A stretch of DNA of 48,919 nucleotides. It comes from Clostridia bacterium (lineage in GTDB: Bacteria; Bacillota; Clostridia; Oscillospirales; RGIG577). The notes beneath the pieces were generated by a model. It was not told the origin of the DNA, did not search any database, and saw nothing but the letters and a program-made list of their open reading frames with translations. Shown piece after piece: positions 24,754 through 47,414 of this stretch. The stretch covers positions 1 to 48,919 of the forward strand of contig JAFWDJ010000041.1 of assembly GCA_017513095.1 (NCBI GenBank), in the 5' to 3' direction. Each line of letters begins with the position of its first letter. The first letter of the stretch is position 1. Made by a program: the position numbers and the translations under genes.

Positions 24754-26766
24754 TTAAAGCGCCTTGAAGTAGATGCTGTGCTCCTTCGCGTACCGTTCGG
24801 CATAAGACCCCGCAGGCGCACGGATGGTGATGCCCCAAAGGCCCTGGCAACCTAGGAACGCACTGTCGCCGATGCTCGTTACGCCATCCGGCAGGATGAT
24901 GCTCCTAAGGCTTTTGCAACCGGCGAACGCAAAGTTGCCGATGCTCTTAAGGCCCTCCGGCAGGGTGATGCTCGTAAGGCTTTTGCTGCCCCAGAACGCA
25001 TGGTCGCCGATACTTGTCAAACTCTCCGGCAGGGTGACGCTCTTAAGGCTTTTGCAGCCCCGGAACGCACCGTCGCCGATGCTCGTCACTCCCTCCGGCA
25101 TGGTGATGCACGTAAGGCTTTCGCAGTATTGGAACGTCTCTTTGCCGATGCTCGTCACGCCGTCCGGCAGAGTGACGCTTATTAGGCTTTTGCAGTTGTA
25201 AAACGCTCGGTCGCCGATGCTCGTCACGCTCTTTGGAAGGGCGATGCTCCCAAGGCTTGTGCAGCCGCTGAACGCTCCCGAGCCGATGGTCGTCACGCCG
25301 TTCGATATAACGATCTCTTTAAGCTTTCGGCAGTTCTCAAAAGTACATGTCGGAATCTCTTTGAACCATCCCGGTATCTCTATTCTCTCAGCGTCCATAT
25401 ATCGTAATCCGAGCATATTCCTGAACTTTTCTTCCGTGATAATTCCCACGCCGAGCTCGGCCGCCTTTCTGGTCTTCTCAGAGCCGCTGTCCGTATCGTT
25501 TGTAACAAGATAGTCCGTCTTCTTCGTTACGGACGATCCGAGCTTTGCGCCGTACTTTTCGAGATATATCTTTATAACTCTTTGGGGCACCCAGCTAATG
25601 CACGAAACTACGAACGTCATGCCCTCGATGCCCTGCGACGGATCACGCTTCATCATTCTTTCAATGAATGCGTCCTCATATTCTTCTTTTTTCTTTTCCT
25701 TCTCTTCGCGCGCCTTGAAAACGTTCTCCATGCCGAGACTGTTCTGATAATTAAGTATCAGAGCTTTAAGCTCGACGTCGCCGCGCTTCCCTGCTTCCTC
25801 AACATAAACGTCAACATCGCCCGGGTTTATAAGCTTGTTTTCGCAGAGATAATAAAGCAACTTAGGATTATCAAAAGCGAACGAACAAAGCTTGCCCGCG
25901 TTCCTTTTCGCGAAGTCTAAGTATGACTTTGACCGCTCCGATTCGGGTTCGCTGATTTCTTCCGATACAAATCCGAGCAGTGCGGTACGACGGAGACTTG
26001 GGGGAACGATTGTAATTACGCTCGGACGAACGCGTGGACCGACGAGGCCGGATTTATACAGCGCAGTGTAATAAGGAAGCCAGCGGCTGACTTGGAGCGT
26101 AAGGTTCCAGCAAAAATAGAACGCCCGTTCACCGATGCTCCAAATACCCTTCGGCAAAGTAATGCTTGTAAGGTTTGTGCAGAAATAGAACGCCTCTTCG
26201 CCGATGCTCGTCACGCTGTCCGGCAGGGTAATGCTCGTAAGGCTTCTGCAACCTAGGAAAGCCCTTTTGCCGATATTCGTAAGGCTTTTCGGCAGGGTGA
26301 CGCTCGTAAGACTCGCGCAGCCGTTGAACGCATAGTCGCCGATGCTTGTTACGCCCTCCGGCAGGGTAACACTCGTAAGGCTTTTGCAGTATTCAAACGC
26401 TTCTTTGCCGATGATCGTCACGCCATCAGGTACAGTCATGTCCCCGCCGGGGCCGTTGTATTTTGTAAGTACACTGTTTACTATAACGAAATCAGGCTCG
26501 GACGGCTGAGTTTTCTTCAAAAACTCCGCGTATCCGATCACGGTTATCGCCTTTCCCGCCGCTATAAGCTCCTTTGCCTTTCTGTACTTTACCGTTTCCC
26601 TGAGAGCGGTATCCGATACGACAAGGATATCCGTCTTCCCCGAAACGGCGCTTTTTACCACAGCGCCGAGGTTTTCCGCAATTCTCTTGACCTTAATTTC
26701 CTGATCGTCGTCAAGGCAGGTCGTAACTATGCTTTTTCCCTTAAGCTCCAGCGATGTTCCGTTCAT
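24754..26766 (-). CDS. BRCT-LRR-BRCT-LRR protein
   Basis: The 670-residue cytoplasmic protein has no signal peptide, unlike most BspA-type LRR proteins. Domains in order: a BRCT-like domain (about 6-86; LKGKSIVTT, SGKTDILVV); a BspA/LRR_5 array (about 108-225) with the 23-residue core SLTSxTLPxGVTSIGxxAF; a helical ankyrin-like region (about 245-365; AGKLCSFAFDNPKLLYYLCE); a second BRCT resembling that of NAD-dependent DNA ligase (about 375-455; VTKKTDYLVTND); and a second LRR array (about 470-640). It is a paralogue of the protein at 33867-36023. It is the last gene of the locus, behind a conserved hairpin element. I infer recognition of DNA ends or protein partners. Confidence 0.85.
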   Translation of the reverse strand: MNGTSLELKGKSIVTTCLDDDQEIKVKRIAENLGAVVKSAVSGKTDILVVSDTALRETVKYRKAKELIAAGKAITVIGYAEFLKKTQPSEPDFVIVNSVLTKYNGPGGDMTVPDGVTIIGKEAFEYCKSLTSVTLPEGVTSIGDYAFNGCASLTSVTLPKSLTNIGKRAFLGCRSLTSITLPDSVTSIGEEAFYFCTNLTSITLPKGIWSIGERAFYFCWNLTLQVSRWLPYYTALYKSGLVGPRVRPSVITIVPPSLRRTALLGFVSEEISEPESERSKSYLDFAKRNAGKLCSFAFDNPKLLYYLCENKLINPGDVDVYVEEAGKRGDVELKALILNYQNSLGMENVFKAREEKEKKKEEYEDAFIERMMKRDPSQGIEGMTFVVSCISWVPQRVIKIYLEKYGAKLGSSVTKKTDYLVTNDTDSGSEKTRKAAELGVGIITEEKFRNMLGLRYMDAERIEIPGWFKEIPTCTFENCRKLKEIVISNGVTTIGSGAFSGCTSLGSIALPKSVTSIGDRAFYNCKSLISVTLPDGVTSIGKETFQYCESLTCITMPEGVTSIGDGAFRGCKSLKSVTLPESLTSIGDHAFWGSKSLTSITLPEGLKSIGNFAFAGCKSLRSIILPDGVTSIGDSAFLGCQGLWGITIRAPAGSYAERYAKEHSIYFKAL
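24826..25330 (-). repeat. 69-bp tandem coding repeats, C-terminal LRR array
   Basis: The GATGCTCGT-type unit boundaries fall at 24871, 24940, 25009, 25078, 25147, 25216 and 25285, exactly 69 bp apart. Each unit encodes 23 residues. Confidence 0.9.
26130..26450 (-). repeat. 69-bp tandem coding repeats, N-terminal LRR array
   Basis: Unit boundaries at 26134, 26203, 26272, 26341 and 26410 keep the same 69-bp register and share long identical stretches with the other arrays. Confidence 0.9.
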
Positions 26767-26885: not shown

Positions 26886-27374
26886 TTAGATCCGCTCTGA
26901 GAGGCGAGCCTTAAGCTCCACGAACAAAACCGCCTGTTTCGCGTGACGGCTTCGGCGCGAAATGGGCTCCGCATAGCTCACACGCGCCTTCTCGAACAGA
27001 AGGCTTCCCTCGTCGTAAAGCGGCGCTATCACATTGCACAGCTCGGCGGGCATATTTCCAACGTCCTTGCCATTAGCGGTAAAAAGCAGAAAATTATTGT
27101 GATTGAAGGGATTTTCACGGTCGCGCCTTATCTCGATAATGTCTCCCTCTTTGACTTTTTCTATCTGTTCGGTGCGCCCGCTGTAACGAGTGCCTCGCGA
27201 TTCAAATCGCAAAAGAAGTTCTCCGCTTGCTTCGTCGTATGTTCCCTCCGATTTATCGAGGTATTCCATAAGCCCCGGCTCGAAATAGTCGGGGCCTGCC
27301 GTTTTGGAAAGCTCAAATCTCTCGTGCAGTCTGCCCGCTTCCGAAAGAAGCGCCTCCTTTTGCTCCCGTGTCAT
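26886..27374 (-). CDS. Stand-alone HIRAN domain protein
   Basis: The 162-residue protein has an N-terminal 60 residues of no clear family and then a HIRAN domain (about 60-162; SGRTEQIEKVKEGDIIEI, RENPFNHNNFLLF, GKDVGNMPAELCNVIAPL). HIRAN domains in HLTF/Rad5-type proteins bind single-stranded 3' DNA ends, and bacterial copies are often in DNA-processing or defence contexts. Its ATG overlaps the stop of the alpha-CTD/sigma-like gene by four bases (ATGA), so the two are co-translated. A GGAGGAG site is present. It would act as a DNA-end or lesion sensor. Confidence 0.8.
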   Translation of the reverse strand: MTREQKEALLSEAGRLHERFELSKTAGPDYFEPGLMEYLDKSEGTYDEASGELLLRFESRGTRYSGRTEQIEKVKEGDIIEIRRDRENPFNHNNFLLFTANGKDVGNMPAELCNVIAPLYDEGSLLFEKARVSYAEPISRRSRHAKQAVLFVELKARLSERI

Positions 27375-30271
27375 ATAATCTCCTCCGTTTCTTCAAGCTC
27401 ACGGTCATAAACGTCGCTGTTTGCGTAGAATCTGTCAAGTATCCTGTCGTAATATATCGCCGTGCCCTTCATTTTTTCAATAATGTCGCTTCTGTCGACC
27501 GAAATGCAGCCATACGTTTCTTTTAAGTCATTCAAAAGATCGTATACGTCTATGCTGCCCGCCTTATTTACAAGTAACTCCACAAACGATTTTACGCTCA
27601 ATGCAATATCACCCGAATAAAATACTATATTTCCGAGCATTTTTACAAAGGTGAGTCTTCTGTCCGATATGAGCAGATTAGCATAAAACCAATCGGAGAA
27701 CCCAAGCTCGAACAACTCGGAATCGAACCCTTTCCCGCGCAGGGATTGTATCGTGAAATACTTCCCCTCGCCTATAAACTCGTACACATCATCGCAATAA
27801 TCGCGTATCGTGTCCTTTGTAACATCCGCGGCTTCAAGTCTGCGTATATTTATAATGCGGTTCGGCTCAAACTCGATTATTTCGAGTTCGCGTTTCAGAT
27901 CCATGAGTATATTTGAAAACGCTGACACATACGTAAACCGCTTTCTGAACTCCGTTATGTCCACGATATCCCCGCTTGTAAGAATGCTCTTAAAATACGC
28001 CTCTGCGCTGTCATAATTTCTTATGGCATATGTTGACAGAACAATAAATCCCATTGATTTAAGGTTGAACGGATTTATTTCCCCGGTGTCGGCGCCGGGT
28101 ACGGCCTGCGAATATATTGTTTTAAGCTCATCAATATAATAAAAGTCGTCTTCCAATGCCGCTTCAAGCGCCGCTCTGTTTTCATCGGACATCGTTTTTC
28201 TTTCGATCGTGAACATGCCGTTATGATAATACACGTAAAGCGGAACAAGATAAGTGGACATGGTTATTTCCTTCGTATAGCCGTATTCCGCCTCTATTAT
28301 AGCGCACAAACGATCCGCGCTGATGCTCGCATTGCCTGCCGTGTCAATGCTCGCGTTGTTCACCATCAGTTCAAAAAGCGCCCTGTCTCGATTGAATTTT
28401 CCGAATTTCAGCATGGGCATACGCTCGCAGCTGAAATCATGAAAGCTTCCCTTGGGTATTATTTTTCTTAAAAGATTATGAAGCTCATACTGATCGCGTA
28501 TATCATACTTAGCCATAATGTCCGGGTGCTCCCGCATAAGCTTTAAGGCGGATATTTCTATGTTTTCATAAGCTTCCAGATTAAGCTCTTCAAGCAGTTC
28601 GGTGTAATCTCTGGCGTCGATATCGTAGTATCTGATCTTCTCGAACTGCTTCCACAGAATAAAGCGGGACTTTGACAAGCTGTTCTTCCTCGTTTTTATG
28701 TTTTTTTCGTTAAAGCAGAGGTCTTCATCCTCTCCGATTCCCTCGCTTTTTAAAAATTCATTGTATTTACGGGCAAACTCGTCAAAATCGATTTCATCGG
28801 TACAGAATCGCCTTGCGACAACCTCTTCAAGAGCGGATCGCTTCTTGGAAACCCACATGCCGTCAATAAATATTTTATTGCGGTTAAGATAGTTCTTGAT
28901 TTTAAGCCGCAGACCCGCATCAAGATTATCCGTATCTTCAAGCGCGTATTTAAGCGCTTTTGTTCCCTTCTTTGTTCCTGCCATTTCATAATAATTAAAC
29001 ACATATTTTGGTATACCGAGCCAATCTGCCGCATCCGTCTTGTCGAACTCATACGTTTGATAGAAATACCGATAATAATCCTCATCTATAACGTTTTTTC
29101 CGTTGAGCGTTAGCTTTCGGAACCCCTTTAAAATCAGCTGCCTTACCCGCTCCCTCGTCACTCCGTAATCTTTGCCTATCTCATCAAGCGTATCGCCGTT
29201 TAGTCTTCTGCGAAGTATATCCTTCGTTCGATCGTCGAAATCTTCTCTGCTGTCAAGGTACTCAAGGACTGACGGATAAATGCGGTAGCATCTGAAGTCA
29301 ACATATTCAAGCTGTTTCTCCGCCAGTAAGGCGCCCAGCGTCTTTTTAAGCCTTGTTTCGGCTATATGCGACGGCAGCCGCTCACGCATTTCATTTAAGC
29401 TGAAGCCTTTGAACCGTGCCTTTTTGTATAAGTCAAGAACAAGTGCTCTTATAGAGTCGTCCGAGATGAGCGCGTCCTTGTCGCCTGCGCAGTATGCCCT
29501 TATACGCTCTTCGTTGTTTAAAAGATACTCGTTTCGCTTCGTAATAATCTCATTTATGCCGTCGGATGATAAACCGCGGCATTCGTCTAAATCACGATAC
29601 GTCAAAAAGATTATATCGCTCAGTTTTTCAAGTCCGCCTCTGAGCAATGCGTTTGAATTGCGTCTCGTAAGCTTAAGCTTATCCACTCCCTTATCGTTAG
29701 CTTTAATGAATTCCAGTATTTTGCCCTTATACGGCTGTATGCCGCACAACGTAAGTATATCGACGTCGGCTGCATCTTCGTGCGGGTCTTCCTCTGCAAG
29801 CATGATGCTTTTATTTTTGAGCAGGTAATCTCTGCACAGCGTCTCTATCGCCGCCGCTGTCTTTTCATCAAGCCCCGGTATCTCCGAAAGCTTCCGTCTG
29901 CTCAAAAATAAAATATGATGCAGCTTATCGTAGCCGTTCAGAGTAAGTATATTGAATGCACGCACCGACATCGCATCCAGGACGTCTATTCCGACGTCAC
30001 TCTTTTCAAGATACTCTGTTATACGCTTTTTTTCCTCTTCGGGCAGTTCCGGGTCATCGTTCTTGTCTTCGTACTCCGCCATCAAAAGATACCTTTTCTT
30101 CTCTGCAAGTATCTCATCTGACGATTTTTTGCCCAGATTCTGAATCGACATGAGCGATTCTTCCGTGCATTCGAGCATCTGCCCGACAGTATGTATCCCC
30201 GCCCTGCGCAGTGCATTCTTTGAACGGACAGAAAGGGGGGTCTCCTCTATCGGTATCATCCTTACATCCAT
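27371..30271 (-). CDS. Large protein with three RNA-polymerase alpha-CTD-like domains and a sigma region 4-like helix-turn-helix
   Basis: The 966-residue cytoplasmic protein has three helix-hairpin-helix domains like the C-terminal domain of RNA polymerase alpha. The first (about 8-55; TPLSVRSKNALRRAGI, then NLGKKSSDEI) is very close. The second (about 95-145) and third (about 196-245) are more diverged. A sigma-70 region 4-like helix-turn-helix follows (about 345-388; GVTRERVRQLI), of the type that contacts -35 boxes. The remaining 570 residues are helical and unassigned. It lies 11 bp after the HEPN-ParB gene, with AGGAGGTG before the ATG. It may bind promoter DNA or RNA polymerase, or simply use these folds to grip DNA. 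Confidence 0.78.
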   Translation of the reverse strand: MDVRMIPIEETPLSVRSKNALRRAGIHTVGQMLECTEESLMSIQNLGKKSSDEILAEKKRYLLMAEYEDKNDDPELPEEEKKRITEYLEKSDVGIDVLDAMSVRAFNILTLNGYDKLHHILFLSRRKLSEIPGLDEKTAAAIETLCRDYLLKNKSIMLAEEDPHEDAADVDILTLCGIQPYKGKILEFIKANDKGVDKLKLTRRNSNALLRGGLEKLSDIIFLTYRDLDECRGLSSDGINEIITKRNEYLLNNEERIRAYCAGDKDALISDDSIRALVLDLYKKARFKGFSLNEMRERLPSHIAETRLKKTLGALLAEKQLEYVDFRCYRIYPSVLEYLDSREDFDDRTKDILRRRLNGDTLDEIGKDYGVTRERVRQLILKGFRKLTLNGKNVIDEDYYRYFYQTYEFDKTDAADWLGIPKYVFNYYEMAGTKKGTKALKYALEDTDNLDAGLRLKIKNYLNRNKIFIDGMWVSKKRSALEEVVARRFCTDEIDFDEFARKYNEFLKSEGIGEDEDLCFNEKNIKTRKNSLSKSRFILWKQFEKIRYYDIDARDYTELLEELNLEAYENIEISALKLMREHPDIMAKYDIRDQYELHNLLRKIIPKGSFHDFSCERMPMLKFGKFNRDRALFELMVNNASIDTAGNASISADRLCAIIEAEYGYTKEITMSTYLVPLYVYYHNGMFTIERKTMSDENRAALEAALEDDFYYIDELKTIYSQAVPGADTGEINPFNLKSMGFIVLSTYAIRNYDSAEAYFKSILTSGDIVDITEFRKRFTYVSAFSNILMDLKRELEIIEFEPNRIINIRRLEAADVTKDTIRDYCDDVYEFIGEGKYFTIQSLRGKGFDSELFELGFSDWFYANLLISDRRLTFVKMLGNIVFYSGDIALSVKSFVELLVNKAGSIDVYDLLNDLKETYGCISVDRSDIIEKMKGTAIYYDRILDRFYANSDVYDRELEETEEII

Positions 30272-30282
30272 ACGCTCACCTC

Positions 30283-32010
30283 CTAAATCATATTTTTAAA
30301 CCTGGCGGCAATTCTTACTATCTCATCTAACTGAGCGCGAAGCATCTCCTTTTCATCCGGCTCGAGCTTTGTGAAAAAGCGCGGGTCTATTTCCAGCAAA
30401 AGGTCTATGCTCTTTTGCGCGTTTTCTATCGGTTTTTCCTTCAGCTGCCTGCTGCGCACTCTTTGCATCGCGCGCTCCATGCTTTTTTCGAGCTCCTCCG
30501 AAAGCTCTTGATTTTTCAAAGCGAACAAATCCGCGTCGTCCTTAGTTCTTATATCCGCCGCGTCGTAATTCTCTTTTATCTTTTCAATAGTCTTCATCTG
30601 ATCGTCAAAAAATGCGTTGTATCCGTCTGACTGTATCAGCTTTTTTATATCTCGTACAAGCTTTCTCTGGTCTGCCGTTGAGCGCATTAAGACGTTGTTG
30701 AACGCTATCAGCTTGAGCCGCTTTTTATCCTCGTCCGAAAGCTGCTTTAAAGGTGCGATAAGCTCCTGGAAAAGGCTGTACACCTGATACTCGCGTGCTA
30801 TATGATACTGCTCGGGCATCTTCAGATAATCAAGAAATTCACTTATTAACCCGGCTATCTCTATCCTCTTTCTTACTTCGGCGGGAGGCTCGTTCGTGCC
30901 CTGTGCATATTCCGCCACGGTGAGAAGTTTGGTCACCACGACGTCGCGATATGTGCCTATTGCGTAATCTATAAGATCGTAATCGACCTTTTTTTCTTCG
31001 CCGTGCTGGATTGCAAGCTCAAGCAGCTTTATCTGCTTTTTGTCGGCTTCTATGTCCATGTCCATGATGACGGTCTCGAAATACAGCGGCTCCGTCGTCA
31101 TGCGCTGCAGCCGCCGCAGACATGTGAATCTCCGGTTGCCGTCAACGATACGTCCGTCCGCGAGCGCGACTCCCGGCACCTGCTGACCTACCAGCGCGAT
31201 ATTTTTCTGCGTTTTTTTAATGGCCTCCGGGTTGCTGTCAACGATAAAATTCTCTATGACCATATTGTATATGTCCCGGTCTATACCTTCAAGGGAGCCC
31301 TCTCCGTTCTCCGTCTCGTAGCGCGTGATCCACGTTGCGATACGGTCGTTCTGGTCGTTGTAATACAAGGCGTCAAGTCTTATGCGGTAAACGGGATATA
31401 CGACCGTTTTTCCGCCGTAACTTACCTTTCGCGTCTGCTTCGTCTTCTTTATAACGGCCGTTCCCACCTTGCGAAGCAGGCTCCCCTCCGCAAGCTCGCC
31501 GCGCTTTGATTCGGGCGCAGGCTGTGCAACCTCGCTGAAATCGGCAGTCGACATCTTCTGCTGACCGTCAGCTCTTGTGCGCACCTCTTTATACAGTTTT
31601 TTTATGTCTCTTTCGGCTTCTTTGTCTATCTCATGCATAATAAGGCGCATATTGTCAAGCGCGCGCTCCGCCGTATGCTGTTCCATGTCCTGTGAGCCTA
31701 TGTGCGAAACGATATTGCGTACGCCCATAAGCTCCTTGGCCCATCCGCGGCAGTTCTGCGACAGAAGATCGCGAAAAAGGCTGCCCCACAGGCGGTCGAT
31801 AAGACGTATGCAGTTCGCTATATCGAGCGAGTCGATCAATTCAGAGTATTCGCCGTCATAAGGCAGATCTCTCTGATCCGAAAGCGTATCGAGGACAACG
31901 TCCCACCACTTATCCTTATACTCCGCACTCAGCTTATAGCCTATGTACTCCGCCAGCGGAGTAAGCATGATATTAAACCCATTTTGTACAGATTCATAGT
32001 TTTCTTTCAT
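30283..32010 (-). CDS. HEPN (Swt1-type) and ParB-like domain fusion
   Basis: The 575-residue protein begins with a helical domain (about 1-140) resembling the Swt1-type HEPN family. It has the motif RNIVSH (Arg98, Asn99, His103), the R-x4-6-H signature of HEPN RNases. The central part (about 200-300) ends in IVDGNRR (Asp290-Arg294), the ParB/Srx-like DGNRR motif used for CTP or nucleotide binding or nuclease activity. The C-terminal 260 residues are helical, with charged coiled-coil segments. No signal peptide is present. I infer a nucleic-acid-cleaving or nucleotide-responsive effector. The ATG overlaps the stop of a micro-ORF by four bases. Confidence 0.72.
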   Translation of the reverse strand: MKENYESVQNGFNIMLTPLAEYIGYKLSAEYKDKWWDVVLDTLSDQRDLPYDGEYSELIDSLDIANCIRLIDRLWGSLFRDLLSQNCRGWAKELMGVRNIVSHIGSQDMEQHTAERALDNMRLIMHEIDKEAERDIKKLYKEVRTRADGQQKMSTADFSEVAQPAPESKRGELAEGSLLRKVGTAVIKKTKQTRKVSYGGKTVVYPVYRIRLDALYYNDQNDRIATWITRYETENGEGSLEGIDRDIYNMVIENFIVDSNPEAIKKTQKNIALVGQQVPGVALADGRIVDGNRRFTCLRRLQRMTTEPLYFETVIMDMDIEADKKQIKLLELAIQHGEEKKVDYDLIDYAIGTYRDVVVTKLLTVAEYAQGTNEPPAEVRKRIEIAGLISEFLDYLKMPEQYHIAREYQVYSLFQELIAPLKQLSDEDKKRLKLIAFNNVLMRSTADQRKLVRDIKKLIQSDGYNAFFDDQMKTIEKIKENYDAADIRTKDDADLFALKNQELSEELEKSMERAMQRVRSRQLKEKPIENAQKSIDLLLEIDPRFFTKLEPDEKEMLRAQLDEIVRIAARFKNMI

Positions 32011-32087
32011 AGAGTCTCGCCTCCGTATTTTTTATTGTATTTCTTTACATCCGGCGGTCGCCGGATGTTTTCCCGCTGTCTGTTCAT
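32007..32087 (-). CDS. Micro-ORF coupled to the HEPN-ParB gene
   Basis: A 26-codon frame starts at ATG 32087 with GAGGAG six bases upstream. It encodes a basic peptide (MNRQRENIRRPPDVKK, then YNKKYGGETL) and stops in an ATGA overlap with the HEPN-ParB start. A perfect ten-pair hairpin lies inside it (32047-32068). Upstream the same frame is open for about 20 codons to a TAG near 32150, so it could be the remnant of a longer gene. It could act as a leader peptide, and no homology is recognised. Confidence 0.4.
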   Translation of the reverse strand: MNRQRENIRRPPDVKKYNKKYGGETL

Positions 32088-32309: not shown

Positions 32310-33824
32310 CTAAAGCGCTTCGAGCTCCTCAAGCTCGCGAATGATATCCTTCTGGCGCTCATAGAACAAAAGCTCCCTGTTGTGGGCGAAATATTCCGGG
32401 GAGCCGTAGCGGCTTATAAAACGCGAGCTGTAATAGCTTATCGTAAGCTCCGTCACGAGCACCAAAACCTCCTGTCCGCCCGGGAATACCTCCTCGGAGA
32501 ATTTGAACATATTTGAAAGCTTCTTTCCCGCGCTGTCGGCGCTCTTTTTAAGCGCCTTCGTGCGCGCGTCGAAATCCTTCTTGAGAAGTGCGAACGCCTC
32601 CTTCGCGTCGTTCGGCGTGTTTTTCATAAGCATGGCCTTCTCTTCATCAAGCGTCTCGATCGCGGACTGAAGCGCGAACTGCCTGTCGTCGGAGAGCGTT
32701 CCCGAACGCTTGCCGGCGGAAAGCTCCCCCTGAAGGCGCGTGATCTGCCTTGAAACGGCGTATTCGGCGTCCGCCGACGGCGACGCGAGCGCGCCTCTTA
32801 CGTTCTTTAAAGCCTCGAGCGTTGTCTTCAGCGCCTCCTCTTCCCTGCAGACGCCCTTTAGATGACCCGTCGCCGCGTCGAGCATAAGGCCGAGCAGCGA
32901 AAGCCGCTCGTCGAAGCGCGCCTGCTTCGCCCTTTCCTTTATGCTGTCGTCCGCCTTGCCGTCAAGGATGGTATCGACCTGATAATCGGAGCGGTACTTC
33001 GTCCACAGGTCGTAATATACGGCGAAATCCTTCGCGATCCTTCTGTTCTGAAGATACTGCACGACGAGCTTTTCGTTCACCGTGTCCTTGTTCTGCTCGT
33101 AAAGGCGCATCATATCGGAAAGGTCGCTCCAGCCGCGCGCCGTTACGAAGCTTTTTCCGTCAACGGTGCTCTCGATCTTGTAAAAATCGCCCTTTTTTAT
33201 GTCCAGATACGTAAGGATCGCGGGATGCACCGACTTTTTCCACGCGTATTCCTTCCAGACCTCATAGTCCGGCTCGACGTCGACGCGCTTGAGCCTGTCC
33301 CACGTTACTATGTCGAACTCGCGCACGGAGTTGTTGTATTCCGGCGGATTTCCAGCGGTGACGACGATCCAGCCCTCGGGCACGCGGTGGCGTCCGAATA
33401 TTTTATACTGCAGAAACTGCAGCATCGCGGGGGCCAGCGTCTCCGAAACGCAGTTTATCTCGTCGAGAAAGAGTATGCCCTCTTTTAGGCCCGTCTGCTC
33501 CATCATGTCGTAGACGCTCGCGATTATCTCGCTCATCGTATACTCCGATACGGCAAATTCGCGCCCGCCGTACGTTTTATGCTCGATGAACGGCAGACCG
33601 AGTGCGCTCTGGCGCGTGTGGTGCGTCATGGAGTAGCTGACGAGCCCGACGCCGAGCTCCTGCGCGATCTGCTCCATTATCGCCGTCTTGCCTATTCCGG
33701 GAGGGCCCATGAGGAATACGGGCCTCTGTTTTTCTATCGGGATAACGTAGTTGCCGAATCTGTCCTTCGTAAAATACGCGCGCATCGCGCTTTCGATCTG
33801 TTCCTTCGCTTGTTTTATGTTCAT
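32310..33824 (-). CDS. MoxR-family AAA+ ATPase
   Basis: The 504-residue ATPase has Walker A GPPGIGKT (40-47), Walker B GILFLDE with Asp121 and Glu122, sensor 1 Asn in TAGNPPEYN, and the arginine-finger region DRLKRVDVEP. A helical C-terminal extension (about 300-504) has coiled-coil character. MoxR ATPases usually act with VWA proteins as chaperone-like remodelling machines, and a VWA gene lies two genes upstream. GAGGTG precedes the ATG by five bases, and the LRR-BRCT gene ends 42 bp upstream. I take it as the motor of the locus. Confidence 0.92.
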   Translation of the reverse strand: MNIKQAKEQIESAMRAYFTKDRFGNYVIPIEKQRPVFLMGPPGIGKTAIMEQIAQELGVGLVSYSMTHHTRQSALGLPFIEHKTYGGREFAVSEYTMSEIIASVYDMMEQTGLKEGILFLDEINCVSETLAPAMLQFLQYKIFGRHRVPEGWIVVTAGNPPEYNNSVREFDIVTWDRLKRVDVEPDYEVWKEYAWKKSVHPAILTYLDIKKGDFYKIESTVDGKSFVTARGWSDLSDMMRLYEQNKDTVNEKLVVQYLQNRRIAKDFAVYYDLWTKYRSDYQVDTILDGKADDSIKERAKQARFDERLSLLGLMLDAATGHLKGVCREEEALKTTLEALKNVRGALASPSADAEYAVSRQITRLQGELSAGKRSGTLSDDRQFALQSAIETLDEEKAMLMKNTPNDAKEAFALLKKDFDARTKALKKSADSAGKKLSNMFKFSEEVFPGGQEVLVLVTELTISYYSSRFISRYGSPEYFAHNRELLFYERQKDIIRELEELEAL

Positions 33825-33866
33825 GAGAACACCTCGTTTTCTCTAGAATTATATGATACGCTATTG

Positions 33867-36023
33867 TTACTCTGCCGCAAACGGGATGTTGTTTTCCTGA
33901 GCGTATTCTTCCGCATACGAACCCGCGGGGGCGTGGATGGTGAGGCTTTCGCAGCCGTAGAACGCAAAGCCGCCGATGCTCGTCACGCCCTCCGGCAGGG
34001 TAATGCTCGTGAGGCTTTCGCAGCCCCAGAACGCAACGTCGCCGATGCTCATTACGCTGTCCGGCAGGGTGATACTAGTAAGGTTTTTGCATTCTTTGAA
34101 CGCATAATGGCCAATGCTCGTCACACCGTCCGGTATAGTAATGTTCGTGAGGCTTTCGCAGCCGTTGAACGCACGGTCGCCGATGCTCGTCACGCCGTCC
34201 GGCAGGGTGATGCTCGTAAGGCTTTTGCAGTCCTCGAACGCCCCCCAACCAATGCTCGTCACTCCCTCCGGCAAGGTGATGCTCGTAAGGCTTTTGCAGC
34301 CCCAGAACGCGTATGCGCCGATGCTCGTCACGCTGTCCGGTATAGTAATATTCGTAAGGCTTTCGCAGCCGTAGAATGCCTGCCAGCCGATTGTCGTCAC
34401 GCCGTCCGGCAGATTGATGTTCGCAAGATTTTTGCATCCTTTGAACGCATAATTGCCGATGCTCGTCACACCGTCCGGTATAGTAATGTTTGTAAGGCTT
34501 TTGCAGTCCTCGAACGCACGGTCGCTGATGCTCGAAATACCCTTCGGTATAGTAATGCTCGTAAGACTTGTGCAGCAGTTGAACGCACGGTCGCCGATGC
34601 TCGAAATACCCTCCGGTATGGTGATGCTCGTAAGGCTTGTGCAGCCTTGGAATGCACCGTTGCCGATGCTCGTCACACCCTCCGGTATGGTGATGCTCGT
34701 AAGGCTTGTGCAGCCTTGGAATGCACCGTTGCCGATGCTTGTAACGCCGTCCGGAATAATGACCTCTTTAAGCTTTTCGCAGCCTTCGAAAGCTTCCGCC
34801 GGTATCTCATTGAACCATCCGGGTATCTCGACATTCTCTGCGTCTTTATGCCATTTTCCGACCATATTGTTGAACTTATCTTCCGTGATTATTTCCACGC
34901 CGAGGTCGGCTGCCTTTCTGTTCTTCTCCGAGCCGCTGTTCGTGTCGTTCGTCACGAGATAGTCCGTTTTCTTCGTTACGGACGGACCGAGCTTTGCGCC
35001 GTGTTTTTCAAGGTGTTCCTTTATATCCTTTCGTGATTCCCAGTGTTTAAGCGCTCCCGAAACAACGAACGTCATGCCCGCGATGCCCTGCGACGGATCA
35101 CGCTTCATCATTCTTTCAATGAACGCGTCCTCATATTCTTCTTTTTTCTTTTCCTTCTTATCACGTGCCTTAAAAACGTTCTCCATGCCGAGGCTGTTCT
35201 GATAATTGAGGATCATGGCCTTCTCTTCGACGTTGCCGCGCTTTTCTGCTTCCTCAATATATGCGTCCACGTCGCCCGACTTTATAAGCTTGTTTTCGCA
35301 GAGATAATAAAGAAGCTTCGGATTATCAAACGCGAACGAACAAAGCTTGCCAGCGTTCTTCTTCGCATAGTTTAAGTATGACTTTGACCGCTCCGATTCG
35401 GGGTCGCCGATTTCTTCCGATATAAATCCGAGCAGCGCACGTCGGCGGAGATTTACGGGGATATCCGTTATAAGGTCTTCCTTCGATATAATAACGGCGG
35501 TGCGGCCTTTGAACGTCTCCGTATAATACGGCTGCCAGCGCACACATTTTACCGTAAGGCTTTTGCAGCCGTCGAAAGCCCGGTTGCCGATTCTCGTCAC
35601 GCTATCCGGCAGGGTGATGCTCGTAAGGCTTTCGCAACGCCAGAACGCCTCTTCGCCGATTCTCGTCACGCTATCCGGCAGGGTGATGCTCGTAAGGCTT
35701 TCGCACCATGCGAACGCCCGGTCGCCGATGCTCGTCACGCCCTCCGGCAGGGTGATGTCCGTAAGGCTTTCGCATCCGTAGAACGCATAGTTACCGATGC
35801 TCGTCACGCCCTCCGGCAAGGTGATGCTCGTAATGCTATTGCAACGATAGAACGCAAAGTCGCCGATGCTCGTAAGACTGTTCGGCAGGGTTATGCTTTT
35901 TAGGCTTTCGCAGCGCCAGAACGCTTCTTTGCCGATGCTCGTCACGCCTTCCGGCACGACAACGTCCCCGTCGGGGCCGCAGTATTTCTTCAAAACGCCG
36001 TTTTCTATCACAAAAGCTCTCAT
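33867..36023 (-). CDS. LRR-BRCT-LRR protein
   Basis: The 718-residue cytoplasmic protein has an N-terminal LRR_5 array (about 15-175), a helical ankyrin-like region (about 185-320; GKLCSFAFDNPKLLYYLCE), a BRCT domain (about 325-405; GMTFVVSG, SVTKKTDYLVTND, GVEIITEDKF) and a C-terminal LRR array of about twelve units. It differs from its paralogue at 24754-26766 in lacking the N-terminal BRCT and having more repeats, while the middle region is strongly conserved. GGGAGG precedes the ATG. It sits between the VWA and MoxR genes, so it is the best candidate for a recognition subunit of that pair. Confidence 0.87.
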   Translation of the reverse strand: MRAFVIENGVLKKYCGPDGDVVVPEGVTSIGKEAFWRCESLKSITLPNSLTSIGDFAFYRCNSITSITLPEGVTSIGNYAFYGCESLTDITLPEGVTSIGDRAFAWCESLTSITLPDSVTRIGEEAFWRCESLTSITLPDSVTRIGNRAFDGCKSLTVKCVRWQPYYTETFKGRTAVIISKEDLITDIPVNLRRRALLGFISEEIGDPESERSKSYLNYAKKNAGKLCSFAFDNPKLLYYLCENKLIKSGDVDAYIEEAEKRGNVEEKAMILNYQNSLGMENVFKARDKKEKKKEEYEDAFIERMMKRDPSQGIAGMTFVVSGALKHWESRKDIKEHLEKHGAKLGPSVTKKTDYLVTNDTNSGSEKNRKAADLGVEIITEDKFNNMVGKWHKDAENVEIPGWFNEIPAEAFEGCEKLKEVIIPDGVTSIGNGAFQGCTSLTSITIPEGVTSIGNGAFQGCTSLTSITIPEGISSIGDRAFNCCTSLTSITIPKGISSISDRAFEDCKSLTNITIPDGVTSIGNYAFKGCKNLANINLPDGVTTIGWQAFYGCESLTNITIPDSVTSIGAYAFWGCKSLTSITLPEGVTSIGWGAFEDCKSLTSITLPDGVTSIGDRAFNGCESLTNITIPDGVTSIGHYAFKECKNLTSITLPDSVMSIGDVAFWGCESLTSITLPEGVTSIGGFAFYGCESLTIHAPAGSYAEEYAQENNIPFAAE
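33930..34780 (-). repeat. 69-bp tandem coding repeats, twelve-unit LRR array
   Basis: Unit boundaries run from 33975 to 34734 in steps of exactly 69 bp. Two neighbouring units (34612-34670 and 34681-34739) are identical over 59 bases. Confidence 0.92.
35545..35980 (-). repeat. 69-bp tandem coding repeats, N-terminal LRR array
   Basis: Boundaries fall at 35589, 35658, 35727, 35796, 35865 and 35934. The segments 35588-35636 and 35657-35705 are identical. Confidence 0.9.
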
Positions 36024-36053
36024 GATTATTCCTCCCTATTCTTATTTTCGTTA

Positions 36054-36120
36054 GATTAATGTGCGCCCTCGGTCATATTATCCCGGAGGCATGAGGGCAT
36101 GCCTCCCTGCGGGGCACGCT
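36054..36120 (-). repeat. Conserved intergenic hairpin element, copy 2
   Basis: GGAGGCATG and CATGCCTCC form a perfect nine-pair stem (36085-36106) next to TATCCCGG and TTAATGTGC blocks, between the VWA stop and the LRR start. The TTAATGTGC block lies 31 bp from the LRR start codon, as in copy 1. Confidence 0.65.
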
Positions 36121-36124
36121 TCCC

Positions 36125-37525
36125 CTATATCTCGTCTTTTCTAAGTATCAGCTTTATCGCCCACGGGGGCACGTCGTAGTTGTTGTATTCCTCGTCGAGG
36201 AAGAGAAACGCCGTACTGTATTTTGGCATTTTCTCGGGGAACGTGCCGTATCCGTCTGTGAAATATATAAGTCCCTTGAGATTCTGGAACTCTTTTTTCT
36301 CTATAAGCTCGTCGACGTATGAGAACACGGGGCGAAAATCGGTGCCTCCGAGTCCCTTTATCGTCATATTCTTAAGATAGCGGTCAAACTCCTCCTGTGT
36401 TGTAATCTTTACGTCCTCCTGAATCTCGGCGTCGCACTGGATGATGTGTAGATTTATCTTTGAAAAGAAGCTTTCCGTGCTTTTTAAGATGTTGTACGTC
36501 TTCTGCACGAACCTCTGCACAATATCGCCCGCAACGGAACCCGAGGTGTCTATAGCGATAACAAATTCGCGTATGCGCTTTACGTCCTTGTATTCGAGCG
36601 GCTCTATGAGCGGCATATTCTTATATAGCGAAAGCCCGTACGTATAAAAAATATAGTCGAACTCGTCGTCGTTTATCTTCATGACCTCGCCCAAAACGGC
36701 GAATCGCCGCAGAAATTCCGTATAATCGTACCGTTCGCGGTTCACTTCCTTTAAATTCTGCATAAGGCCTCCGGCGCGGTCGCCCTGCTGCTTTGAGAAG
36801 GTCTCCATGTCCATCTCTATGCGTTCGGAAACGTCCCGCCAGTCCTTCTCGGAGCCAAGCGGCGCATCCGTGGCGGCGCCGCCCGCGGCAGCCGCTTCGC
36901 CTTCGCCCTCCGCGTCGCCGTCGCCTTCACCGTCGCTCTCTCCCCGGCCGCCGCCCTTTCCGAGGCCGAGGGCGGATTTTTCTTCGTCGCTCATATACCA
37001 CACGCGGTGGTCGTCGGCGTAGAAAATGCCGCGAAGCTCCGCCATTTTCGCGGGCGGCAGCTTCTTATCAAGGTAATAGCGGTATATCTTCTCCGCCGTA
37101 AGCTGTCCCACCTTGCCCGAAAGCTCATTGTAAACGGCCGTCTGCCGCGCCTCGCGTGCCGCCGCGGTACATGAAAGCCCCAGCCCCGCGATGGAATACT
37201 CCGCCGCTATGTCGCAAGCCAAATCCCACGCGGTGTGATCGACGAGCGTATGTACGAACATATGCCGGTATATGCAGTGGAGCACAATGTGAAGATAATC
37301 GCGCACCGGCACCGTGCGCTCCGTTTTATAGCATTTTAAGATATGCCCCGGATCGTAGGCGATAAATCTTCCGTCCGTAGCGTACGTAAGCTCTTGTATC
37401 TCCACCGGCTCAAGACGGCTCAGCGCCGCGTCGAGAAAACGCAGATTCACAAGCAGCTGATTTCGCGACAGACTAAGCACGTCTCTTGCAAGCTGCGACC
37501 GTCTTATGCTTTTTTCTTCGTTCAT
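36125..37525 (-). CDS. DUF2201-type VWA protein
   Basis: This 466-residue protein is the usual partner of MoxR ATPases. The N-terminal region (about 1-175) resembles the DUF2201 zincin-like domain, with histidines at 79, 83 and 88 (LHIVLHCIYRH) but no HExxH. An acidic Gly/Glu/Ala linker (about 188-222) follows. The C-terminal VWA domain has a MIDAS DTSGS (Asp326, Ser328, Ser330), GGTDF further on, and TDGYG. The ATG at 37525 was chosen because AGGTGA lies five bases upstream. Metal-dependent binding by the MIDAS could link MoxR to its targets. Confidence 0.9.
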   Translation of the reverse strand: MNEEKSIRRSQLARDVLSLSRNQLLVNLRFLDAALSRLEPVEIQELTYATDGRFIAYDPGHILKCYKTERTVPVRDYLHIVLHCIYRHMFVHTLVDHTAWDLACDIAAEYSIAGLGLSCTAAAREARQTAVYNELSGKVGQLTAEKIYRYYLDKKLPPAKMAELRGIFYADDHRVWYMSDEEKSALGLGKGGGRGESDGEGDGDAEGEGEAAAAGGAATDAPLGSEKDWRDVSERIEMDMETFSKQQGDRAGGLMQNLKEVNRERYDYTEFLRRFAVLGEVMKINDDEFDYIFYTYGLSLYKNMPLIEPLEYKDVKRIREFVIAIDTSGSVAGDIVQRFVQKTYNILKSTESFFSKINLHIIQCDAEIQEDVKITTQEEFDRYLKNMTIKGLGGTDFRPVFSYVDELIEKKEFQNLKGLIYFTDGYGTFPEKMPKYSTAFLFLDEEYNNYDVPPWAIKLILRKDEI

Positions 37526-37590
37526 ATGATTCACCTGCCTGAATTTTACTATATCATACATTAGGCGCTCATGCACGCCGCTTCGGCGGG

Positions 37591-40500
37591 TCAGAGGATG
37601 AAGTCGAGTAAATTATACAACTCCGGTGCGTCCGGATTATTTTTCTGACTGCACAACATGAAAGCCGGCTTTTTCGGCTCTTCGGGCAACGGATGCGCCT
37701 TTGATATTTTCGCATTCAGCGAAAGCGTCTGCCGTGATACTTTTGTCGGTATCGCCGCAATATCCCGTGTGTACTCTTCCTTCGCTTCGTCTCTTTTCTT
37801 TCTGATTTCCGGAAGCGTAACGCCGTTTAACTGCTCGATTATACTTCTGAGCGCGCGTTTTTTCGAGAAGCTGAAGAATCCGAGCTGCGAAAGCTGTGAC
37901 TCCGACCGTGCAAGCTCCTCATTCGCTTTTGTCTCCTCGTCGTCAAGAGCGCGAAGGGCATTCACCCTTTTTTCCTCCGCTTCGGCCTCTAATTCGGCGC
38001 GCAGCTTCTCCGTTGCCTCCTTTAAAGCCGCGTTTCGTCTTTCTTCTATAACCCTGCACTCTTCTCTCCATTTTGCATACGCCTTCTCATATTCCGCCTT
38101 CTGCTTCTTTTCTCTTTCCTCCCGCCTGCGCTTTTTTTCGGCCTCACGGGCTTCTCTTTCTTTTCTCTCTATCTCTTCAAGGCGCTGCTTCTCCAAAAGA
38201 AACTCTTTGCGCGCATTGCAGTATGATATAAGAATTGCCAAAGCCCCGGGCCTCGCTTCTGCAAGTCGCGCCTCTTCTATACGTCTGTTCTCCTCCGCGA
38301 TACGCTTTTTTTCGGCCTCGCGCTCTTTTCTCTCCTTTTCGGCCCGCTTCTTTTCCATCTCCTTCTTTTTTTCTGCGGGCGGCGGGCCTACACGGCTTTT
38401 AAGCTTTTTCGCGTATGCCGAGCTAGCCTCGATCTTATTGCTCTTGTCGATCGTGACCGTAAGCGTTGTTTCCCCGGCTACCATCTTCAGCACGTCGTAT
38501 ACCTTGTCAAGCAATTTGCTGTCGGGATTCGATTTCGACAGCGCAAGATATACGCTTTCGCATCGTTTAAGCAGTTCATCAAGATGTCCGACCGTGGTTT
38601 CAAGTATCGTTTTTATGTTCCTTTTGAACTCCGGTATATTTGCTTTACCGCTTTGGGAGTCGAGCTTTAAGAACTGCACTTCAATATTTATTTCAATCGT
38701 TCTTGCATTAAGTAAATGCTCCTGCCAGCTTTCGACAAGCGCCTTCCACTCCTTCACGAGAGCGGCGGTCAGCTTAGAGGACGTAAAGCGGTCGTCGTCG
38801 GGATATTCGAGATAATTTAGGCTTTTCTTCGGTCTTATATGTCGGAATACTTCCAAAATCACGTCATCATATGCGGGGCGGTCCTTTCTTTTGATTCCGT
38901 CGAGCTGAATGCGCATTGAGCGCAGGCCGTTCGTCATGCAGGCGAAAACGTTGGCGTGAACAACGCTGCCGTCGTATGCTATCGATACAGCCCCCGGGAA
39001 CGCTTTTTCTTCAAACGGAATCGTTTTTACCGATTCAAACATGCTGTTTAATGCTCCCCCGAGTCCGCCGCTTCCTCTTTTTATGGCTTCGGCTCCCAAT
39101 TTGTTGAGCGCAATGTATTCCGGAAGCGTGGCGCAATTCTTTATACTGTCATTATCGAAAAGCTGTCCCGCAAAAATAACAAAATCGGAGCCGAACATGC
39201 CCTTTTGCCCCTTTGACGGGCGATACGCAATAAAATCGCGTCCCTCAGCGCCCACTTCTATAACAAATCCGTCGGGGATGTCCATTTCATAATTCGGGCC
39301 GTACGCCTTATTGCCGTCGTTATACGTGATCACTGCGGCAGCCGCATTTTTCGCGGGTGTTTTCGCAGGCTTTTCGGTCTGTGCAGGCTTTTTGTCGGCG
39401 GTTGCGGGCTTTTTATCGGCCGGTGCAGGCTTTTTTTCCGCACTTGCGCTTTTTTTCTCTTTTTTCTCCGTTTCAAATCCAAGCGCCTTATAAAACCGCT
39501 CGGCTGTTATTACTTTAGTCGATGCGCAGCGTCCCTTAAGTCGCTGAAGATTTAGATCACGGATCTTCGAGTCGCCCGCGTATTTCGGTTCGCAGACAAG
39601 ATAATCCGTCTGTCCCGATACAGCCGTGCGGTAAAGGCCGCCTTTTTTCTGCAGCATTTTCAGTGCCTCATCCCAGTTCTTGCTGGCCTCCATGCCGCTG
39701 AAAACGAACTTTTTCCCCGCGAATACAACTTTCGAGCGTTTGTCAAGAAGCGACGAGTGCTTGTTCAGCCACTCCCTTTCGTGTTCGAGTGCGCTTTCCT
39801 CCATATAAGTCTCCCAATACGGCTTCTCATCGGGATGAGAGAACGAACAGTTCACGGGACCGTCCTCACTGAATATCGGCTCTCTCGCCGCATAAGCCAT
39901 AGAACACCATGCGTACAGTATATCCGCTGCGGCTCCTTCGAGCGGCTCGTTTCTGTCGCGTATGCTTTCAAGCTCAGCATGCAGCGTGCGCACAGCGGGC
40001 AGCATCCACGAAAGCTCGCTTCGCAATCCGTCAAGCGATGATACGGCGCATTTAGGCGCATCATCGGGAACTCCTGCGTTGACAGCCTTTAAGAGGGCTG
40101 TTCTGTCCGTCTTTGTGACCGCATCGGGAAGGTAGTATACATGAATGTCGTCACCCGAGCAGAGCACGGGGCATATTTCGTTCTCCGTGTAATTGAGGCA
40201 GCCGTTATGCGATACAAAGTAAGCTATATCAAGGAGCGTATCTATGGCCGCGTCGGCCGGTTCTGTCTCATTGTCGCGGCAGTACGCGCCGAGCGTCCAT
40301 GCGAAGGAGCGAAGCGCGTTGTAATTAAAAGCCCGCTGTATAAAGCCGCTTTTTATCTCCTGCTCACGGTCGTGGCCGGCGTCGAACGCCTCTATAGACA
40401 CGCGGAAAAGCTCCGACATCTTAAGCGCCTCGTCGGCCGCCGAAAATCCTCCCTTGTCCTTCGCGCACGCGCGCTTAAGCACTTCTTTTATCTTCGCATC

Positions 40501-41202
40501 CTCCGTTATTTCGGCTTCTCTCTTAAGCGGCACGAACGCATATTCCGTACCCGTTTGATTTACCTGCGCGATGCCGCCCAAAAGCCCGAAAACGTTTTTT
40601 GACTTGTTAAGAAAATCAAGATGCGTATGCTGTCCCGCTTTCGGTTTTCCGATGCGAAACTCCCCGTCGTAGGACGGGCCCGCTTCGCTTGCCGCCTCGT
40701 TTGCCAGCTTTATGAGCATATCTGCGGTGATCGGCTCAAAAACGCCCTTGTCGTTGTCTATCACCATGCAGTTAAGTACCGAGCTCAGATGAAGCGCGAC
40801 GCTTTCGATAGTTATTTCCCTGTCCTCGGGCCGTCCCGCCCTGACGATCGCCATGGAATACGCCGCGCCCTTATGCAAGACGTTTACGCCTGCGATAACG
40901 GCCGTCACGTCAAATATGAGCATTCTATCTTCCCTTATTATGCACTTTACAACTGCCTCGAAACTGCCTTTCAGATTGACCTCCGAGCTGTCAAAAGCGG
41001 CCGCGTCCATGTTTGCAACCTTTACGGCATAAGGTACATCGTCTCTTAATGCTTCACTTTGGCCTTCGGAAATGCATTCTATTTGAAAAAACGTATCGCC
41101 ATCGTCGTCCGTTTCGCGCTTTGCCGTATATCCGCTTTTTAGTTCAAACTCAAGATGATTGTCAAATCTCTCGCTGCTTTTGTTATTTCGCGCGCTTGCC
41201 AT
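37591..41202 (-). CDS. Giant BRCT and coiled-coil protein
   Basis: The 1203-residue cytoplasmic protein has an N-terminal 500 residues of unknown fold and one BRCT domain (about 520-605; KFVFSGMEASKNWDEA, SGQTDYLVCEPKY). An alanine/lysine/proline-repeat linker (about 610-655; KKPAPADKKPATADKKPA) and another unassigned globular region (about 660-870) follow. A very long E/K/R-rich coiled coil (about 960-1150) comes last. The ATG at 41202 has AAAGGA eight bases upstream and overlaps the WYL gene by 20 bp. It resembles no family I can name. Architecture suggests a DNA-bound scaffold. Confidence 0.72.
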   Translation of the reverse strand: MASARNNKSSERFDNHLEFELKSGYTAKRETDDDGDTFFQIECISEGQSEALRDDVPYAVKVANMDAAAFDSSEVNLKGSFEAVVKCIIREDRMLIFDVTAVIAGVNVLHKGAAYSMAIVRAGRPEDREITIESVALHLSSVLNCMVIDNDKGVFEPITADMLIKLANEAASEAGPSYDGEFRIGKPKAGQHTHLDFLNKSKNVFGLLGGIAQVNQTGTEYAFVPLKREAEITEDAKIKEVLKRACAKDKGGFSAADEALKMSELFRVSIEAFDAGHDREQEIKSGFIQRAFNYNALRSFAWTLGAYCRDNETEPADAAIDTLLDIAYFVSHNGCLNYTENEICPVLCSGDDIHVYYLPDAVTKTDRTALLKAVNAGVPDDAPKCAVSSLDGLRSELSWMLPAVRTLHAELESIRDRNEPLEGAAADILYAWCSMAYAAREPIFSEDGPVNCSFSHPDEKPYWETYMEESALEHEREWLNKHSSLLDKRSKVVFAGKKFVFSGMEASKNWDEALKMLQKKGGLYRTAVSGQTDYLVCEPKYAGDSKIRDLNLQRLKGRCASTKVITAERFYKALGFETEKKEKKSASAEKKPAPADKKPATADKKPAQTEKPAKTPAKNAAAAVITYNDGNKAYGPNYEMDIPDGFVIEVGAEGRDFIAYRPSKGQKGMFGSDFVIFAGQLFDNDSIKNCATLPEYIALNKLGAEAIKRGSGGLGGALNSMFESVKTIPFEEKAFPGAVSIAYDGSVVHANVFACMTNGLRSMRIQLDGIKRKDRPAYDDVILEVFRHIRPKKSLNYLEYPDDDRFTSSKLTAALVKEWKALVESWQEHLLNARTIEINIEVQFLKLDSQSGKANIPEFKRNIKTILETTVGHLDELLKRCESVYLALSKSNPDSKLLDKVYDVLKMVAGETTLTVTIDKSNKIEASSAYAKKLKSRVGPPPAEKKKEMEKKRAEKERKEREAEKKRIAEENRRIEEARLAEARPGALAILISYCNARKEFLLEKQRLEEIERKEREAREAEKKRRREEREKKQKAEYEKAYAKWREECRVIEERRNAALKEATEKLRAELEAEAEEKRVNALRALDDEETKANEELARSESQLSQLGFFSFSKKRALRSIIEQLNGVTLPEIRKKRDEAKEEYTRDIAAIPTKVSRQTLSLNAKISKAHPLPEEPKKPAFMLCSQKNNPDAPELYNLLDFIL

Positions 41203-42256: not shown

Positions 42257-42292
42257 ATCGCCGCATCTCCTCTCTTTTATATATCCGCCTTT

Positions 42293-46554: not shown

Positions 46555-47335
46555 AGCGCACACCTATCGCTTTCATAAAGTCACAGATTCGGTTAAGGCT
46601 GATTTCGTCGGCGTAAATTTTAAGCGTTACCGCGCCGTCCGGCTGTGCGGGCGCGCTTTCTGCGGCTTTGGGCGCTTCGGCGGCCTGTGCGGGCACGCTC
46701 ACCTGAGGAGCGATGCTTTTAAGCGACTCCGCAAGCTCCGCGGCCTTTGATTTTACGGCGTCCATCGACATAGTCTGAGAGTACACGCGAAGCAGCGCCT
46801 CCTCGAAGGGCGATTTTGTCTTTTTTATCTCCTCGATATCGCCGGCCGCGAGGTTTATCGCCTCGAGCACGCCCTGTTCGTATTTGTTTCGCGCCGTCGA
46901 CGCGTTGAGCCACTTTTCGTCAAGCAAAACGGGAAAGAGCGCGTCGGACAGCGCGCCGAGATGGGCGGACTTCCTGTCGTAAAAATCACGTATCTCCTGC
47001 CTTTTTATCTCTTTCTGACGCTTTTCGAAATCCTTCACAGTTGAATCTATCGCGTTTATATGCCTGTCCACAACGGCGACAAGCGACTTTATCTCGGGCT
47101 CTATCGCGTTGTAAGGCGCAAGGCACTTTTCCTTGTATTTCTTTCGCTCGGTCTCGATGGACGATTTTACATCCTTGAGCAGTTTGCGGTCGTCCTTTGC
47201 CGCCTTTATATTCTCGTCCGTGTATACGGTCTTTTCGTAGCGTGCAAGCCTTTCTTCAAGTCTTTCACGAAGCGCGGGAAAATCCCACATCGTTACATCG
47301 GTATTGTCGATTGTTATAAGCTCGTTGTTTTTCAT
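46541..47335 (-). CDS. DUF1351 phage-type protein
   Basis: The 264-residue protein matches the DUF1351 family found in phage recombination and replication modules. It has an N-terminal region with LKDVKSSIETERKKYKE, a coiled-coil centre with DRHINAIDSTVKDFEKRQ, a low-complexity A/P/S linker (about 210-235) and a short C-terminal beta-alpha unit. Its stop lies inside the start of the helicase-nuclease gene (14-bp overlap), so the two are co-translated. AAGGAGG precedes the ATG. Its biochemical role is unknown, but phage homologues sit near RecT-like and exonuclease genes. Confidence 0.75.
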   Translation of the reverse strand: MKNNELITIDNTDVTMWDFPALRERLEERLARYEKTVYTDENIKAAKDDRKLLKDVKSSIETERKKYKEKCLAPYNAIEPEIKSLVAVVDRHINAIDSTVKDFEKRQKEIKRQEIRDFYDRKSAHLGALSDALFPVLLDEKWLNASTARNKYEQGVLEAINLAAGDIEEIKKTKSPFEEALLRVYSQTMSMDAVKSKAAELAESLKSIAPQVSVPAQAAEAPKAAESAPAQPDGAVTLKIYADEISLNRICDFMKAIGVRYERV

Positions 47336-47414
47336 GTCGTTTCCTCCTTTAATAATTTATCAGAAGCGCTGTATTTCCCCGAGCGCATATTCCTTGATTT
47401 ATCCAACGGCGCGC

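Follow-up and report, generated by a model that had tools for sequence, protein, structure and literature searches.

The 48,919-nucleotide stretch of Clostridia bacterium DNA analyzed here (contig JAFWDJ010000041.1; hereafter the window) encodes a 966-residue protein, called SIG below, that fuses three helix-hairpin-helix (HhH) domains resembling the C-terminal domain of the RNA polymerase alpha subunit (alpha-CTD) to a sigma-70 region 4 and a long array of winged helices. Sequence, structural-model and comparative data establish this combination of domains, the conservation of its DNA-contact residues, the coupling of its gene to a small set of partners, and the mobility of the resulting cassette, which has passed between distantly related bacteria and frequently has DNA-modification or restriction genes as neighbors. 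From these observations we infer, at a probability of about 0.55, that SIG is the DNA-reading subunit of the mobile cassette, which is probably an anti-phage defense system. If so, about 1% of the Bacillota genomes sampled, as well as Enterococcus plasmids, carry a defense-type cassette unrecognized by the catalogs used here, whose targeting subunit re-uses promoter-recognition parts of RNA polymerase.

Domain architecture and DNA-contact residues

An earlier reading of the DNA made from its letters alone (the sequence-only reading) had placed the SIG gene exactly and had described a first HhH domain close to the alpha-CTD, two diverged copies behind it, and a region 4-like helix-turn-helix in the same chain. 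All of this is borne out (Table 1). Pfam matches RNA_pol_A_CTD three times in SIG (whole-protein E 7.5e-29) and Sigma70_r4 once. In the AlphaFold2 model, built with 53 homologs and having a mean predicted local distance difference test score (pLDDT) of 88.4 over the chain, residues 1-63 superimpose on the Bacillus subtilis alpha-CTD with a deviation of 1.3 Å over 63 residues and 46% identity. The E values of the single copies, obtained in a search against the genome, together with family-profile scores of 74.7, 45.6 and 42.0 bits for copies 1, 2 and 3, indicate that the matches of the two diverged copies are genuine and did not arise by chance. Nor are the alpha-CTD matches mere rpoA noise, an explanation that was rejected because SIG has three copies of its own and the rpoA gene of the genome lies on another contig.

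Beyond the alpha-CTD and sigma domains extend about 570 residues of winged-helix array, the remainder of the protein being a run of winged helices by predicted secondary structure. This array, which went unmentioned in the sequence-only reading (residues about 270-332 and 396-949), as did the conserved gene cassette described below, retrieved full-length relatives and carries an almost invariant signature. The best solved look-alikes of SIG are tandem winged-helix proteins, namely UFL1/DDRGK1, SelB, TFIIIC and a Pol III initiation subunit; no solved structure found by Foldseek or VIA-align covers the whole chain, which we do not count as evidence of a new fold.

Residues of the alpha-CTD are given in Escherichia coli alpha numbering, and their conservation was counted across the first HhH copies of 53 homologs. 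Copy 1 of the window protein carries the full set of DNA-contact residues, namely R265, N268, G296, K298, S299 and E302. Among the homologs, R265 is present in 53/53, N268 in 50/53, G296 in 52/53, a serine or threonine at 299 in 51/53, and E302 in 52/53; K298 is kept in 38 of the 53. R16 and G47 of SIG, the equivalents of R265 and G296, belong to the best-conserved positions of the full-length protein, as do R373, E374, R375, R377 and Q378 of the -35 recognition helix, whose R-E-R-x-R-Q pattern is nearly invariant in the family. By contrast, the sigma-contact positions 259 and 261 vary freely among homologs, with G, N, D, H or P at 261 in most cases. Neither sigma region 2 nor region 3 is matched in SIG (Pfam at E 0.1; NCBIfam sigma matches confined to region 4), and the rpoA models of Pfam and NCBIfam match through their CTD part only, with no alpha N-terminal dimerization domain. 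At the level of sequence, this pattern suggests that promoter-type DNA binding has been retained while polymerase contact has not. Binding of promoter DNA by SIG is plausible, because the contact residues of copy 1 and the -35 helix are conserved, whereas binding of RNA polymerase is not supported, given the unconserved 259/261 surface and the missing sigma region 2/3 and alpha N-terminal domain. The sequence-only reading, which had put forward promoter occupancy or polymerase binding, is supported in part.

Table 1. Positions in the window of SIG, its domains and the adjoining cassette genes; E values of the HhH copies are individual values
Feature	Position	Strand	Support
SIG, 966 residues: three alpha-CTD-like HhH, winged helix, sigma region 4, winged-helix array	27371..30271	-	Open reading frame, Pfam, AlphaFold2 model
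Alpha-CTD-like HhH domain 1; every DNA-contact residue present	30107..30268	-	E 2.7e-18; structure match Z 11.8 (B. subtilis alpha-CTD)
Alpha-CTD-like HhH domain 2; R, N, K present, D at 296	29846..30013	-	E 8.6e-5
Alpha-CTD-like HhH domain 3; R, N present, S at 296, D at 298	29537..29701	-	E 8.2e-7
Winged helix directly ahead of sigma region 4, residues 270-332	29276..29464	-	Archaeal Rpa2 winged helix, Z 10.8, 1.5 Å over 62 residues
Sigma-70 region 4, residues 346-387; -35 recognition helix TRERVRQ intact	29111..29236	-	Pfam Sigma70_r4, E 1.3e-9
C-terminal winged-helix array, residues about 396-949; family-defining	27425..29086	-	Alignment of homologs, AlphaFold2 model
Family signature D-x-Y-E-L-H-N-L-L, residues 593-601	28469..28495	-	D, Y, E, L, H, N and L unchanged across 53 homologs
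Partner gene: Swt1-type HEPN fused to ParB-fold protein, 575 residues	30283..32010	-	Pfam, model
HEPN_Swt1 domain; RNxxxH (Rx4H) RNase motif intact	31624..31980	-	E 3.3e-22; Swt1 4pqz, Z 8.0
ParB/KorB-like fold with DGRIVDGNRR motif	30991..31398	-	ParB-CDP 7bnk, Z 10.4, 1.7 Å over 93 residues
HIRAN-domain gene; 4-base overlap with the SIG gene	26886..27374	-	E 1.2e-10; adjacent in 12 homologous loci

A mobile cassette and its partner genes

A scan of 84,980 species genomes with the family signature as a pattern returned 71 loci. Together with one viral contig, Enterococcus plasmids, one Clostridia genome and the window these make 77 loci, two of which are the same Ndiopella gene (L097 = L031), hence about 76 homologs. 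They belong mostly to Bacillota, with others in Spirochaetota, Melainabacteria, Verrucomicrobia and a Succinivibrionaceae metagenome-assembled genome, and Enterococcus plasmids carry homologs that NCBI labels only as "sigma factor-like helix-turn-helix DNA-binding protein." Prevalence is low, the family being found in 4/398 sampled Bacillota genomes. Viral contigs gave no close relative when searched with the single SIG protein and one when searched with the family alignment; in phage records the matches were rpoA and sigma only.

Clustering of the neighboring genes identified a ParB-fold protein of ~400 residues as the dominant conserved partner, in 45 of the 77 loci, with a helicase in 32 and a HIRAN protein in 15; no ParA-type gene emerged from it as a cassette member. 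The SIG and ParB genes usually lie a few bases apart and often overlap, and spacings within the cassette fall mostly between -20 and +20 bases. Two layouts recur. In layout I, SIG is followed by ParB and then by an SNF2 helicase; some of these helicases carry a PLD domain, at the N-terminus in the one 856-residue example examined. In layout II, represented by 15 loci including the window, a Swt1-type HEPN fused to ParB comes first, then SIG, then HIRAN; in the tree these 15 proteins group with 3 solo ones in a single well-supported set of 18 rows. The RNxxxH RNase motif is intact in 14/14 aligned HEPN-ParB proteins, and the partner in the window scores 79.4 bits against HEPN_Swt1, for a Pfam cut-off of 27.5. 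The model of the ParB partner comes closest to the plasmid repressor KorB (Z 11.2). Pfam leaves ParB_N unmatched in it, and a profile-profile comparison gives E 0.008 at a weak probability of 5%, with the GERRxRA and ENLQRE boxes aligned in register. The ParB part in the window is 43% identical to the partner on an Enterococcus casseliflavus plasmid.

Members of the family vary in build. The HhH domain is present twice in 39 proteins, three times in 16 and once in 4; 18 have no detectable copy. Two loci (L061 and L068) have a tandem pair of SIG-type proteins, of about 905 and 660 residues, ahead of the ParB gene, and another member (L075:7634-12244) has about 430 additional N-terminal residues. 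In Urinicoccus (L090) and Ndiopella (L097), SIG is solitary, in an identical chromosomal setting without ParB or helicase, and is possibly domesticated.

Mobility of the cassette follows from its plasmid sites, from near-identical copies in different genera, from its absence from sister species and from the low GC content of the SIG gene. Near-identical SIG proteins in the tree come from Cohnella, Lacrimispora and Desulfosporosinus, which indicates recent transfer. Synteny of the window with one sister genome (G001) runs up to about 24647 and is then broken, and a second (G002), a genome that lacks both ParB and SIG genes, holds the DUF4132, MoxR and 1213-residue BRCT genes contiguously (78-80% DNA identity). 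The SIG gene has the lowest GC content (0.44) and third-codon-position GC content (GC3; 0.51) of its neighborhood, compared with 0.557 and 0.752 for MoxR. Synteny and composition together thus mark HEPN-ParB, SIG and HIRAN as a separate, acquired cassette beside a module of MoxR, VWA and leucine-rich-repeat (LRR)/BRCT genes. Membership of SIG in a surrounding MoxR/VWA/DUF4132 operon was rejected, since G002 has DUF4132, MoxR and BRCT without ParB or SIG; with it falls the assumption of the sequence-only reading that SIG acts when that operon "fires," the true unit being the cassette. A looser functional link between cassette and module is possible, because the module recurs beside the family in four loci besides the window (L038, L051, L055 and L065).

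Several copies have defense genes as neighbors. Six cassettes adjoin a Dcm methylase gene together with a restriction gene of the MutH type, and an Enterococcus lactis plasmid copy adjoins a type I restriction-modification system. In three loci, SIG is directly upstream of the Ssp phosphorothioation genes, where it adjoins SspB and does not replace it; in the viral contig, it is directly upstream of BrxP-BrxC-PglZ of BREX; and in one further locus (L089) a PbeA-type helicase lies nearby. Relaxase genes adjoin two loci. The viral contig (L104:8915-21653) has phage genes upstream, and its SIG member, of 1449 residues, stands directly before BrxP, BrxC and PglZ, giving a phage or prophage contig with a BREX-like operon. 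A BrxP-type protein occurs in 33 of the 398 sampled Bacillota genomes, and none of these is among the 4 with the SIG family. Since no sampled genome held both, the Ssp, BREX and PbeA links are sporadic, and SIG as a regular component of type 4 BREX or Ssp was rejected as a rule, with no genome shared with BrxP and four associated loci only.

Proposed mode of action and its alternatives

As the DNA-reading subunit of a probable defense cassette, SIG would use its HhH and sigma-4 domains to bind AT-rich upstream and -35-like DNA, reading promoter-like sequences without RNA polymerase. There it may deliver or license its ParB-fold partner, which, probably nucleotide-switched, would load or spread on the SIG-bound DNA. 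Recognition of foreign DNA would then fire the effector, through HEPN RNA cleavage in the window or helicase/PLD attack on DNA in layout I. Such a mechanism would be comparable to the published logic of SspB, DndG and FokI, in which tandem winged helices are the DNA target readers of restriction and phosphorothioation systems (PMC10853773), and of PglW of BREX, in which an alpha-CTD-like domain is followed by winged helices (PMC12839542). In its boldest form, the idea is of an immune system that recognizes invaders by their promoters, with polymerase-derived readers (alpha-CTD and sigma region 4) acting independently of polymerase to load a nucleotide-switched ParB-type clamp that triggers a HEPN RNase or a helicase-nuclease; we hold this version to be speculative and rather unlikely. 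The defense reading, if it holds, would make testable the question of whether bacteria can know an invader by DNA rich in promoters or by AT-rich promoters, and not by methylation or sequence motifs alone. The cassette also offers experimenters signature residues and well-defined partners (ParB fold with HEPN, HIRAN and SNF2/PLD).

Several observations weigh against the defense reading. A defense census of the neighboring genes left restriction-methylation as the only signal to stand out. The Gly-Lys contact is partly lost in copies 2 and 3 of the window protein, and the 18 homologs with no detectable HhH copy are explained by truncation only in some cases. About one third of the loci have SIG without ParB or helicase, some of them in ordinary chromosomal settings, as in Ndiopella and Urinicoccus. 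Solitary copies imply that SIG can do something alone, and therefore keep alive the proposal that it chiefly regulates transcription of its own operon, as repressor or activator, and has no direct role in attack. SIG opens the operon in loci of the helicase layout and in those with Ssp or BREX genes, its DNA-contact residues are of promoter type, and the closest fold match of its partner is a plasmid repressor, KorB. However, SIG comes second in the layout of the window, conservation of the upstream DNA stops after about 35 bases even where copies are near-identical, with no conserved inverted repeat ahead of the cassette, and a length near 900 residues with many winged helices is unusual for an operon regulator. 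We regard this alternative as the best of the three considered here, and still as an outside one.

Less probable again is the version offered by the sequence-only reading, in which SIG binds RNA polymerase or occupies host or phage promoters and so blocks or redirects transcription during infection. In RNA polymerase, the upstream half of a promoter is bound by the alpha-CTD and sigma region 4 (structure 3n97), and SIG resembles both with its DNA-contact residues intact, but the unconserved 259/261 determinant and the failure of Pfam to find sigma region 2 or the alpha N-terminal domain make this an improbable role. Equally improbable is a cassette that serves mobile elements in maintenance or partition-like functions instead of defense, a role to which the ParB/Noc/KorB fold of the partner, the plasmid locations and the two relaxase neighborhoods would point, given that the cassette lacks a ParA-type gene, includes intact HEPN RNase, HIRAN and SNF2/PLD proteins, and resides mostly in genome contigs, several copies adjoining restriction or modification genes.

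Relation to known systems and the surrounding genes

Neither SIG as a whole nor its ParB partner has a model in PADLOC 2.0, NCBIfam 20 or Pfam; the comparison with catalogued defense systems such as Azaca was made through the PADLOC and NCBIfam models. A literature search largely confined to open-access papers brought up none that describes the fusion or the cassette. One likeness is to PglW, in that an alpha-CTD-like domain precedes winged helices in a defense protein (PMC12839542). PglW, however, begins with a kinase and ends in a STAND-like module, both of which SIG lacks; SIG has instead its sigma region 4, and its family has between one and three copies of the HhH domain. The match of SIG to the PglW equivalog model is weak, with 22.4 bits for a cut-off of 990, in the HhH region only, and the Pfam scan contains no kinase. 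MzaA of the MZA anti-phage system is likewise a large non-sigma defense protein with a sigma region 4, but SIG reaches 25.6 bits for a cut-off of 800, through region 4 only, with its alpha-CTD unmatched and with other partners. SspB, DndG and FokI share the use of winged-helix arrays, that of SIG being longer and bearing promoter-type domains, and no sequence match between SIG and these readers was found. To RNA polymerase itself, SIG is related by the fold and DNA-contact residues of the alpha-CTD and by the -35 recognition helix of sigma-70 region 4, and differs in lacking the alpha N-terminal domain, sigma regions 2-3 and the sigma-contact surface of the alpha-CTD. The partner gene in the window has the domain pairing of the Saro_3948-type Swt1-HEPN/ParB fusions (PMC3710099); the part of that survey consulted mentions no promoter-domain partner, and the present cassette adds SIG and HIRAN.

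The start codon of HEPN-ParB is preceded, at a distance of about 40 bases, by a perfect 10-base inverted repeat (ACATCCGGCG-AC-CGCCGGATGT; 32047-32068), which is not conserved in other cassettes, with the possible exception of L034. A conserved operator upstream of the cassette was rejected, no inverted repeat being conserved and a strong one occurring in the window and one relative only. From 32310 to 48919, a second, separable accessory module occupies one strand of the window, with genes for a MoxR ATPase, a VWA/DUF2201 protein, a BRCT protein, a WYL regulator, a DnaQ-like exonuclease, UvrD with a PD-(D/E)XK nuclease, DUF1351 and DUF4132. The cassette is itself flanked by two BspA-type LRR proteins with an internal BRCT (24754-26766 and 33867-36023), and LRR/BRCT proteins are found near homologous cassettes in 15 loci.

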